From the NCBI RefSeq assembly GCF_947497025.1, contig NZ_CANMFC010000001.1, positions 310,001 through 374,000 on the forward strand: a stretch of DNA of 64,000 bases, given 5' to 3'. Source of the DNA: an uncultured Kushneria sp. (GTDB taxonomy: Bacteria; Pseudomonadota; Gammaproteobacteria; Pseudomonadales; Halomonadaceae). Made by a program: the position numbers and the translations under genes. Every line of letters begins with the position of its first letter. Positions within the stretch are counted from its first letter, which is position 1. Below the pieces are notes generated by a model, which was not told the origin of the DNA, searched no databases, and saw nothing but the letters and a program-made list of their open reading frames with translations. This document shows, piece after piece, positions 4,520 to 11,936 of this stretch.

Positions 4520-4660
4520 AACCATGTTTTGCAGGCCTGAAGGCGGCCATTTCAGATATAGGCCTGCGGGATGAAAATTCGACATGAGGTGAGGGTGCAG
4601 GTCAAAGTCCGGATTGCTGGACTATGTTGTATCAACGAACCTGGATTCCGTTTGATCCCA

Positions 4661-4782
4661 TGATCTCGATGCCTGTCACGACTTTCTGGCGCATGCCGCC
4701 GCCCTGAGCCTTCAGGGTTACACCGCTCCCATTGAGTGGCGCACTCGCCCGAGTGCCTTTGTCGTGACGTTTCCGGCGTCAA
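4661..4782. repeat. Structured repeat, copy 1 (outer stem + four hairpins)
   Basis: Direct repeat of 5068-5190; GATGCC.GTCACGAC ... GTCGTGAC.GGCGTC outer stem; internal hairpins GGCG/CGCC, CCCTGA/TCAGGG, CCGCTC/GAGTGG, GCACTCG/CGAGTGC. Confidence 0.85.
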
Positions 4783-5067
4783 ATCCTCCGAGTAAAAAAG
4801 TACATATATATGCTGTCGAGCAGGGTTCGACACTATTTTCGACCGTCACAAGGTGTATTGACTGCGCTGAATAGGAGAGTGGCCATGATGGACCATGTCG
4901 ATCAGTTAACCATCGAGATTGATGACGGTTCTCGTGCCCTTGAAAAGGATTGTGACGCGAATGTTGTACCGGCCACCGCGCAACCAGGGTGTTGTCCTGG
5001 AATGCAGAGTGGGTCGCTGTCTGCTAGAATTCGCTCCATTAAATCATCAGACCTTTGGTCAAGATAA

Positions 5068-5190
5068 TGATCTCGATGCCTGTCACGACTATCTGGCGTA
5101 TTACGCCGCCCTGAGCCTTTCAGGGTTATACCGCTCCCACTGAGCGGCGCACTCGCACGAGTGTCTGTGTCGTGACGTCTCCGGCGTCAA
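5068..5190. repeat. Structured repeat, copy 2
   Basis: Same element as 4661-4782; outer stem identical, CCGCTC/GAGCGG stem fully paired, CCCTGA/TCAGGG retained with a 1-nt longer loop. Confidence 0.85.
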
Positions 5191-5455: not shown

Positions 5456-6951
5456 ATGATAGGTTCAATAAGGGAAACCTGGTTTTCCAATGTCAAAAAC
5501 GATGGCCTGGCCGGGATCGTTGTCGCCCTGGCGTTGATTCCGGAGGCGATTGCCTTCTCGATCATTGCAGGGGTGGATCCAAAGGTCGGGCTGTATGCCT
5601 CCTTTTGTATTGCCGTAGTGTCAGCCTTTGCCGGTGGGCGACCGGGCATGATTTCAGCCGCCACGGGTGCCACGGCACTATTGATGGTGACGCTGGTCCG
5701 TGAACATGGCCTTGAATATCTGCTGGCAGCGACCATTCTGACCGGTGTGTTTCAGATTATTGCCGGCTATCTGAAGCTGGGCGAGCTGATGCGCTTTGTC
5801 GCGCGCCCGGTGGTCACGGGCTTCGTCAACGCACTTGCCATTTTGATCTTCATGGCGCAATTACCGGAATTGACCGGCGATAATGCGCGCCCACTGGTCT
5901 TTGCGCTCACGGCCGCGGGTCTGGGGATCATTTACCTGTTTCCCTATATTCCGGTCATTGGTAAATCCATTCCTTCCCCCATGGTCTGTATTGTCGTGCT
6001 GACGGCGGCGTCCATGATCATTGGCTTTGATGTGCGCACCGTGGGTGATATGGGCGAGCTGCCTGACAGCCTGCCGGTCTTTTTGATTCCCGATATTCCG
6101 CTGAATTTCGAAACCCTGGCGATCATCTTTCCCTATGCCCTGATGGTCATGCTGGTAGGCCTGCTGGAATCGATGATGACGGCCACCATCGTGGACGATC
6201 TGACCGATACGCCCAGCGACAAGAACCGTGAATGCCGCGGCCAGGGCTACTCCAATATCGTGGCCGGTTTCTTTGGCGGCATGGCGGGCTGCGCGATGAT
6301 TGGTCAGACCGTGATCAATACCAAATCCGGCGGCCGTACCCGTCTCTCCACGCTGATCGCCGGTGTGGGCTGCTGATCATGGTGGTCTTTCTGGGTCCCT
6401 GGGTGGCACAGATTCCCATGGCCGCGCTGGTCGCCGTCATGATCATGGTGTCCATCGGCACCTTTAGCTGGGAGTCGATCAAAACGCTCAAGACGCTGCC
6501 GGTCAGTACCAACATTGTCATGATCGCCACCGTAGTCATTGTGGTCGCGACCCATAATCTGGCCATTGGGGTGATTGCCGGCGTGCTGCTGAGTGCGCTG
6601 TTCTTTGCCAACAAGGCCGGTCAGCTGCTGCATATTGATCGTCGCGTGCTCAACGATGGCGATATCCATGAGTATCACGTCATTGGCCAGCTGTTTTTTG
6701 CCTCGACCACCCGGTTTTCCAACGCCTTCGATTTTCGTGAAGCGCCCTCTATCGTGCGTATCGACCTGCATCGGGCGCATCTGTGGGGCACCACGGCGGT
6801 GGAAGCGCTTGATCGCGTGATTATCAAGCTGCGCCGCGAAGGGACCGAGGTATCGCTTGAGGGGCTCAATGAAGCCAGTGCTACGCTGGTAGACCGTTTT
6901 GCGGTGCATGACGACCCGGTAGCGGCAGAAAAACTGATGGGCGGACACTAA
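5456..6951 (+). pseudogene. SulP family anion permease, copy 1, disrupted by a -1 frameshift near 6370
   Basis: ORF 5456-6376 ends ...LIAGVGC*; the homologous continuation [21 protein letters not shown] is in another frame to 6951; intact paralog at 10437-11936 reads ...[19 protein letters not shown]. Confidence 0.88.
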
Positions 6952-6962
6952 GGAGCGTCATC

Positions 6963-7829
6963 ATGACAAATCAGATCATGGCCTGTATTGACGGGTCACG
7001 GCTATCGCACGCCGTTTGTGACTACGCGACATGGGCGGCCAGAGAAATGGCCGCGCCTATCACTCTGGTACACATGCTCAGCAAAAAGGGGGCTTCTCAG
7101 GCCGACGCTGATTACAGTGGTCGACTCAGCCTGGGAGGGCGAGAAGCCCTGATGGAGGAGCTGACGTCACTGGATGAAAAGCGCAGCCGGCTGGCCCTCG
7201 AGCACGGCAAAATGCTGCTTGAAGAGTACCGGGAGCGTGCTCAGACGCACGGGGCCACGGATGTTCACACCCGGCAGCGTCATGGCCGCCTGGTGGGGGC
7301 GTTGAGCGAGATCGAAGACGATATCGGGCTGCTGGTGCTGGGCAAGCAGGGCCGGGCCTCCGAGCAGGACAATGACAAGGAACACCTGGGCAGTAATCTG
7401 GAGCGGGTGGTCAGAACGCTGCACAAACCTGTACTGGTGACCGTGGGTCCTGAATTTGTCGAGCCCCGGCGCCTGATGATGGCGTTTGATAACAGTGATG
7501 TGGCGCGCCGGGGGATTGAGACGCTGGCCAATAGCAAGCTGGTCTCACGGCTTGAGTGCCATGTGGTGATGGTCGGTGATGATCAGCAGGAGGCCGAGCA
7601 GGCACTTCAGTGGGCGGAGGAGATTCTGAAGGCCGCCAGCGTATCGGTCGTCACGGCCGTGCGTCATGGCGAGGTCGCTCGGACGCTTGAGGATTACGCC
7701 GATGACAATGATATCGACATGATTGCCATGGGCGCCTATGGCCACTCCAGAATCCACTATCTCTTCTCCGGCAGTACCACGACGAAAATGATGCAGACCA
7801 CCCATCTGCCGCTGTTGCTGCTGCGCTGA
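6963..7829 (+). CDS. Universal stress protein (tandem UspA domains), copy 1
   Basis: MACIDGSRLSHAVCDYATWAAREMAAPITLVHML ... DMIAMGAYGHSRIHYLFSGSTTTKMMQTTHLPLLLLR. Confidence 0.9.
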   Translation: MTNQIMACIDGSRLSHAVCDYATWAAREMAAPITLVHMLSKKGASQADADYSGRLSLGGREALMEELTSLDEKRSRLALEHGKMLLEEYRERAQTHGATDVHTRQRHGRLVGALSEIEDDIGLLVLGKQGRASEQDNDKEHLGSNLERVVRTLHKPVLVTVGPEFVEPRRLMMAFDNSDVARRGIETLANSKLVSRLECHVVMVGDDQQEAEQALQWAEEILKAASVSVVTAVRHGEVARTLEDYADDNDIDMIAMGAYGHSRIHYLFSGSTTTKMMQTTHLPLLLLR

Positions 7830-10436: not shown

Positions 10437-11936
10437 ATGCGAGGTTCAATCAAGGAAAACTGGTTTTCCAATATCCGTCCTGACGTGTTGTCAGGACTGG
10501 TGGTGGCGCTGGCACTGATTCCGGAGGCGATTGCCTTTTCGATCATCGCAGGCGTTGATCCCCAGGTCGGGCTTTATGCGTCATTTTCGATGGCAGTCGT
10601 CATCTCGATTACCGGCGGGCGGCCAGCGATGATTTCGGCCGCGACCGGGGCCATGGCACTGTTGATGGTGACGCTGGTGCGCGATCACGGCCTTGAGTAT
10701 CTTTTTGCCGCGACCATTCTGACCGGGCTTTTGCAGATTCTCTGGGGCGTGTTGAAACTCGGCAGCCTGATGCGCTTCGTGTCTCGCTCGGTCGTGACCG
10801 GGTTTGTCAACGCACTGGCCATTTTGATTTTCATGGCGCAGCTGCCGGAAATCACCGGTGCCAATGCCACGCTGACAGTCTACGCCATCATGCTGGGCGG
10901 GCTGGCCATCATTTATCTCTTCCCATATGTGCCGAAGATCGGCAAGGTCATTCCTTCGCCAATGGTCTGCATCGTGCTGATGACGGCTGTGGGGATGATC
11001 TTCGGGCTTGATGTGCGCACCGTGGGTGACATGGGCAGCCTGCCCGACAGTCTGCCGGTGTTTCTGATTCCCGACATCCCGCTCAATCTCGAGACGCTTT
11101 TGATCATCTTTCCCTATGCACTGACGCTTTCTGTCGTCGGGCTGCTGGAGTCAATGATGACCGCCACGATCGTGGATGATCTGACCGACACGCCCAGTGA
11201 CAAGAATCGTGAGTGCCGCGGGCAGGGCATTGCCAACGTGGCGACCGGTTTTCTGGGCGGCATGGCCGGTTGCGGCATGATCGGCCAGACGGTCATCAAC
11301 GTGAAGTCCGGCGGTCGGACCCGGCTTTCCACCATGACGGCCGGCGTCGGCCTTCTGATCATGGTGGTCTTTCTGGGGCCCTGGGTGGCACAGATCCCGA
11401 TGGCGGCGCTGGTCGCGGTCATGGTCATGGTTTCGATCGGCACCTTTGACTGGGGCTCGATTCGTGATCTGCCCAAAAAGCCGTTGACGACCAATATCGT
11501 CATGCTGGCCACCGTGGCCGTCACCGTGTCGACCCATAACCTGGCGATGGGCGTACTGGTGGGCGTACTGCTGGCAGCGCTTTTCTTTGCCAACAAGATC
11601 GGCCGTATCCTGCAGATCGATAGTGTGCTTGCCGAGCAGGACGGCGTGCAGCAGCGTGACTATCATGTGCGCGGGCAGGTCTTTTTCGCCTCGACCACCC
11701 GCTTTGCCGATGCCTTTGACGTCAAGGAAGGTGTGGATCGGGTCTGCATCAATGTGACGCATGCCCATTTCTGGGATATCACGGCGGTCGAGGTGCTGGA
11801 CCGGATTGTCATGAAGTTTCGTCGAGAGGGGATCGATGTCGAGGTGATCGGTCTCAATGAGGCCAGTCAGACCATGGTCGACCGCTTTGGGGTACATGAC
11901 AAGACCGATGGCATTATAGAGCCGGGCGGTCACTGA
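10437..11936 (+). CDS. SulP family anion permease, copy 2 (intact)
   Basis: [50 protein letters not shown]; SulP core plus C-terminal STAS-like region. Confidence 0.93.

Follow-up and report, generated by a model that had tools for sequence, protein, structure and literature searches.

A putative leader-peptide RNA upstream of sulP, duplicated in tandem in an uncultured Kushneria species

Introduction

Ahead of a sulP transporter gene, an uncultured Kushneria species carries two nearly alike repeats, and the question raised by this locus is what such a pair does there. The window analysed here is the whole stretch of 64,000 nucleotides (contig NZ_CANMFC010000001.1, positions 310,001 to 374,000 of the forward strand), to which all coordinates refer. 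An earlier note on this DNA had described two repeats of ~122/123 bp, each with an outer stem enclosing four hairpins, in a ~930 bp region without a convincing gene, and had offered a structured RNA, a REP/MITE-like element or a folded single-stranded DNA recombination substrate as explanations. We argue, with a probability of roughly 0.68, for a leader acting in cis on sulP and tandem-duplicated in this genome, in which a ribosome at a Pro-Pro-stop sequence opens the stem and sets sulP expression. The features on which the argument draws are as follows.

4595–4623, + strand: promoter-like boxes of copy 1, recognised from the sequence only
4660–4782, + strand: structured leader element, copy 1, with a two-part outer stem and four hairpins (minimum free energy (MFE), covariation over 12 sequences)
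4660–4707, + strand: candidate 15-codon upstream open reading frame (uORF) of copy 1, MISMPVTTFWRMPPP; open and free of indels in 12/12 homologues
5002–5030, + strand: promoter-like boxes of copy 2, recognised in the same way
5067–5190, + strand: structured leader element, copy 2 (MFE −57.2, z −5.2)
5067–5114, + strand: candidate 15-codon uORF of copy 2, MISMPVTTIWRITPP; open in homologues
5075–5188, + strand: outer stem of copy 2 (pair table)
5075–5080/5183–5188, + strand: helix 1 of copy 2
5081–5089/5169–5177, + strand: helix 2 of copy 2
~5094–5108, 5109–5125, 5131–5147 and 5149–5164, + strand: four hairpins of copy 2
5456–6951, + strand: sulP (SulP_a), the gene behind the leader (Pfam Sulfate_transp)
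6963–7829, + strand: usp, a universal stress protein gene behind sulP (Pfam Usp)

Two copies of a stable fold

Both repeats are real: the copies are 90% identical over ~123 nt each with a spacing of 284 nt, and their likeness begins one base before the start noted earlier, at ATGATCTC. The genome holds no third copy, giving a total of two. Pairwise comparison of the surroundings of both copies found no alignable likeness beyond their edges; this bears out the earlier description of sharp borders as far as alignable sequence goes, but promoter-like boxes are kept at equal distances upstream. Ahead of copy 1, GTGCAG (4595–4600) is followed after a 17-nt spacer by an extended −10 element, TGC-TGGACT (TGCTGGACT, 4615–4623), and ahead of copy 2, ATGCAG (5002–5007) is followed after the same spacer by TGC-TAGAAT (TGCTAGAAT, 5022–5030). 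Thus an RTGCAG box stands 17 nt before the −10 hexamer at the same distance upstream of both copies.

Both copies fold into the proposed outer stem and four hairpins, with an MFE of −56.0 kcal/mol (z = −4.9) for copy 1 and −57.2 kcal/mol (z = −5.2) for copy 2, a stability that 0 of 200 shuffles matched for either copy; the opposite strand folds more weakly. Copy 2 can be aligned with the single copies of related species over a longer stretch than copy 1. Between the copies, at 4885–5067, lies a 60-aa ORF behind GGAGAG that has no Pfam match.

The sulP gene behind the leader appears to have a broken frame: near 6365 there is an apparent one-base deletion, after which the second half lies in another frame, and a stop after AGVGC at 6376 falls within the Pfam match. 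The break has the look of either a one-base deletion or an assembly mistake. The window also contains a second, intact sulP (SulP_b, 10437–11936) behind an MFS-like gene; the leader is absent from the short upstream gap of SulP_b. The N-terminus of the leader-bearing SulP of congeners is closer to SulP_b than to SulP_a.

Homologues and synteny

When 275 genomes of the family were searched at the DNA level, seven of nine congeners proved to have a single copy. Covariance-model searching, which the earlier note had recommended, added the remaining two (G125 and G127) as well as a single species from a different genus (G169), giving one copy in each of the 9/9 congeners; among the ten species searched in the genus, only the present one has two. 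The gene order is yceI, element, sulP in the congeners and cfa, element, sulP in G169, so that what stays constant across both gene contexts is sulP downstream on the same strand. The uORF peptide of K. sinocarnis (L035) is that of G127, MSMMPVTIYRISTPT. A search of plasmids for the element gave no match. The recommended comparison with Rfam yielded no family at the gathering score in the window, nor in 13 sulP loci of other genera, and nothing up to E 10 for the element itself.

Several further matches were set aside. BLAST matches in G019 and G109 and covariance matches in G341 (L034) and G186 (L115) were read as chance: the L034 match sits within a kinase-like coding frame, the surroundings of the match in L010 and L011 lack the element, and the L115 match has no sulP nearby.

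These results bear directly on two DNA-level possibilities, a mobile repeat of the REP/MITE kind and a recombination site formed by a folded single strand. Two sharp-edged copies are what such an element might leave behind, but the genome has two copies only, each congener has exactly one orthologous copy at a fixed site upstream of sulP, and the bases covary and keep a reading frame, as set out below. Reading of both copies revealed no integron attC core (RYYYAAC/GTTRRRY). The recombination substrate gained no positive support, and the fixed synteny, promoter-like boxes and conserved frame point to RNA instead; we find either DNA-level explanation barely credible.

In several Kushneria loci (L003, at 1851–1867, and likewise L004, L005, L006 and L008) a short G+C-rich hairpin of differing sequence stands just upstream of the sulP ribosome-binding site, followed by an ATTTT-containing tail. 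This hairpin is possibly a second control point.

Covariation of the fold

The covariation set comprised 12 distinct sequences, fitted to a six-helix structure. In this structure 96.3% of cells are paired, and sliding the partners by 1–3 columns lowers pairing to 25–48%. Changes on both sides of the helix occur at 9 base pairs, compared with 2.6 in shuffles, and 0 of 500 shuffles did as well; hence the RNA fold has been under selection, and the RNA is capable of forming a five-way junction. Although an alignment fitted to the covariance model is biased towards structure, an ordinary MAFFT alignment gives the same changes. Double compensations fall in helices 1 and 2 and in hairpins 1, 3 and 4, that is, in five of the six helices, and include GGCG/CGCC to GGAG/CTCC in hairpin 1, CCGCTC/GAGCGG to TCGCCT/AGGCGA in hairpin 3 and A-U to G-C in hairpin 4. 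Hairpin 2 is the weakest: G169 lacks it, and G125 and G127 have it in altered form. Base variability is greatest in the loops and the junction.

Folding in silico without the 5' part leaves hairpins 3 and 4 in place and frees both 3' strands of the outer stem, which are able to pair with one another in 11 of the 12 sequences, a pairing for which covariation gives no support. The modelled alternative hairpin formed by these strands is thus just a possibility.

A 15-codon reading frame within the fold

A 15-codon ORF opens with base one of each copy (MISMPVTTLWRLTPP, then the stop) and ends in Thr-Pro-Pro-stop, its ATG forming the first invariant bases of the element. Copy 1 has its ATG at 4660 and its TGA at 4705–4707, within hairpin 2; copy 2 has its ATG at 5067 and its TGA at 5112–5114, with ACGCCGCCCTGA at 5103–5114. 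All 12 homologues have exactly 15 sense codons and a stop, which is TGA but TAA in G169, and their peptides include MISMPVTTLWRLTPP, MIMMPVTTHWSPTPP and MFSAPVMTLWSLTPP. There are no indels over the 48 nt of the uORF in the 12 sequences, whereas loops further 3' differ in length. The earlier statement that the region lacks a convincing gene therefore needs qualifying, with a candidate ORF in each copy whose equivalent is open in all homologues. That note had also considered that a lack of homologues and covariation, or ordinary protein-coding sequence, would count against a structured RNA: homologues and covariation both exist, and the 5' third is indeed a short conserved ORF, but it is one embedded in a covarying fold.

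From the 12 sequences alone the case for coding appears moderate. In a column-permutation test 55 of 3000 permutations were as good, and the variable columns are spread equally over the three codon positions, partly because the same bases must also form structure. No strong Shine-Dalgarno sequence was found before the uORF in this genome. The extended −10 element, as TGN-T[AG][AG]A[AC]T (TGN-TRRAMT), lies 27–37 nt upstream of the uORF ATG in 12/12 homologues, with an RTGCA-like box ~17 nt ahead of it in 12/12. The arrangement expected of a leader-peptide operon, with a promoter-like box, a 15-codon ORF and sulP downstream on the same strand, was found in all 12.

Codons 3 to 8 of the uORF double as the 5' strands of the outer stem, and a ribosome positioned there would therefore necessarily exclude the five-way junction.

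The same ORF end upstream of sulP in other genera

An independent set of 80 sulP loci was gathered by transporter similarity alone. Counting ORF ends, for most of which an in-frame start codon is present although this was not a criterion, a Thr-Pro-Pro-stop end lies ≤400 nt upstream of 42/80 sulP genes compared with 2/343 other genes in the same loci; the other 38/80 sulP loci have no such end in the 400-nt window. In terms of site density, there are 46 sites in 39.8 kb upstream of sulP and 25 in 1,412 kb elsewhere. Stop choice differs as well, with TAG 34, TAA 10 and TGA 2 upstream of sulP, compared with TAG 2, TAA 6 and TGA 17 elsewhere. Since a Fisher p-value on 42/80 against 2/343 ignores relatedness, it is safer to go by genera: of the 35 named, 18 have a Thr-Pro-Pro-stop end before sulP. 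An apparently pause-prone peptide end is hence conserved upstream of this gene.

The frames themselves vary. Pseudomonas has MTVLQTIYWQPTPP; those of Halomonas/Vreelandella end in ...SGLMTPP and those of Marinobacter in ...TVTITPP; short forms occur in Vibrio and Photobacterium (MSITPP), Shewanella (MLITPP, GTG start) and Acinetobacter (MTLTPP); and Thr-Pro-Pro-stop ORFs are also found before sulP in Aeromonas, Acidovorax and Curvibacter. Across this wider family the stop is usually followed by a tract rich in C and poor in G, at positions +8 to +18. In a more distant, class-wide sample the feature is rarer, an XPP-stop ORF end lying 100–220 nt upstream in 7 of 22 readable loci (L135, L139, L140, L141, L148, L150 and L155), six of them with TAG and three ending in TPP. 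Of six other loci inspected, five have a Usp-like ORF behind sulP, and the upstream neighbours vary. In Acinetobacter towneri (L073) the Thr-Pro-Pro-stop leader is also in tandem, 424 and 124 nt upstream of sulP, through an identical stretch 300 nt apart in a duplication apparently independent of that in the window.

The covariance model gives no match in the other lineages that keep the ORF end, which weighs on two further readings. Tandem riboswitches and tandem small RNAs are known as two similar structured RNAs in one intergenic region; here, unlike in those cases, each copy has a uORF, and the doubling is confined to one of the ten species searched in the genus. A tandem-duplicated trans-acting small RNA of the PrrF1/PrrF2 kind, placed before sulP by chance and with an incidental ORF, would account for a promoter-like box of its own ahead of each copy, for the very stable fold and for a base-pair run that never reaches the sulP ribosome-binding site. 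It is nevertheless unlikely, as the element without exception immediately precedes sulP on its strand, across two gene contexts, lacks the PrrF type of terminator directly after the fold and has an ORF end that is found again ahead of sulP in genera lacking the fold. A ligand-binding riboswitch for sulP, the uORF being a by-product of sequence conservation, seems distinctly unlikely: a binding pocket would be conserved, but the loops and junction are the most variable parts, and other lineages keep the ORF end without a match to the fold, even though a multi-branch covarying fold in a transporter leader would suit a riboswitch and tandem copies are known among riboswitches.

Proposed mechanism and comparison with known systems

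The recurrence of the same peptide end before sulP in many other proteobacteria suggests instead that the leader is probably an unreported ribosome-pausing switch for this gene. The sequences themselves establish the fold, the ORF ending and the link to sulP; the steps that follow are proposals built on them. In the cis-acting leader that we propose, the extended −10 promoter would start the transcript shortly upstream of the element, and translation of the uORF would pull apart the outer stem and hairpins 1–2. Pausing at Pro-Pro-stop would hold these helices open and thereby settle if transcription, or translation, proceeds to sulP; within the overall explanation this step is slightly favoured. 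In other proteobacteria, the C-rich, G-poor tract directly after the stop points to Rho: a paused ribosome would partly cover it, and the simplest reading is that Rho loading is controlled there much as in TnaC. Kushneria-type leaders have the structured junction in place of this tract. No intrinsic terminator follows directly after the element, a result on which intrinsic attenuation was rejected for these leaders, and no C>G bubble lies between the element and sulP in the Kushneria group, so that control there may run through Rho, translation or message stability. Also counting against the proposal are the missing strong Shine-Dalgarno sequence, the modest coding test, the 38 of 80 sulP loci lacking a Thr-Pro-Pro-stop end and the broken frame of sulP in this genome.

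The lack of both a terminator and a C>G bubble would also fit a cis leader that acts through structure, RNase processing or mRNA stability alone, with translation of the uORF protecting the message and no pausing. Such a leader is very improbable, in that it leaves unexplained the sulP-specific Thr before Pro-Pro-stop and the UAG found elsewhere.

The pausing leader has a known counterpart in TnaC of the E. coli tryptophanase operon, a short leader ORF ending in Pro-stop at which a paused ribosome covers the Rho loading site. The wider sulP family resembles it in having a C-rich tract right after the stop, in the same placement. It differs in its peptide, in the SulP transporter gene that it is proposed to control and in a stop that is often UAG; in this genus, moreover, a covarying five-way junction surrounds the ORF, and stalling and a Rho effect are here a proposal. 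The copper-responsive CruR/DUF2946 uORF tunes Rho-dependent termination in a transport operon through a C-terminal Pro-Pro arrest motif (RAPP); the CruR protein itself has some 145 residues and a CXXC copper motif (PMC9426467). The sulP uORF shares the C-terminal Pro-Pro, but it has 15 residues, contains no Cys, lacks the CXXC and RAPP hallmarks and places Thr-Pro-Pro directly before the stop. Judged by sequence, the leader belongs to neither TnaC nor CruR. Structured uORF leaders are also described for speF of Salmonella (PMC6386406), corA of E. coli (PMC11552253) and toiL of E. coli (PMC12121999); by these descriptions, rather than by sequence, they are alike in having a translated short ORF and alternative RNA conformations or Rho in a 5' leader, and unlike in their genes, peptides and folds. 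The open-licence literature yielded no paper describing a sulP leader peptide, which is weak evidence of novelty.

More broadly, we give even odds to a widespread, undescribed sulP leader-peptide family ending in Thr-Pro-Pro-(UAG), by which gammaproteobacteria and some betaproteobacteria would set SulP expression through pausing at the termination stage, and which in Kushneria and one other genus would have been recast into an RNA with a five-way junction and a coding 5' strand, duplicated in tandem in this genome. If this is true, an overlooked leader ORF controls a common bacterial transporter family. The strictness of Thr-Pro-Pro-stop, the UAG preference and the C-rich tract lead to a specific prediction, namely pausing at termination involving release factor 1, EF-P and Rho. 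The Kushneria form would be a rare case of the same bases conserving both an RNA fold and a coding frame, with relatives showing intermediate forms.

In Aeromonas media (L113, 638–658), a strong intrinsic-terminator-like hairpin (CTCTGGTTGT/ACAACCGGAG followed by TTTTTTT) lies between the Thr-Pro-Pro-stop uORF and sulP.
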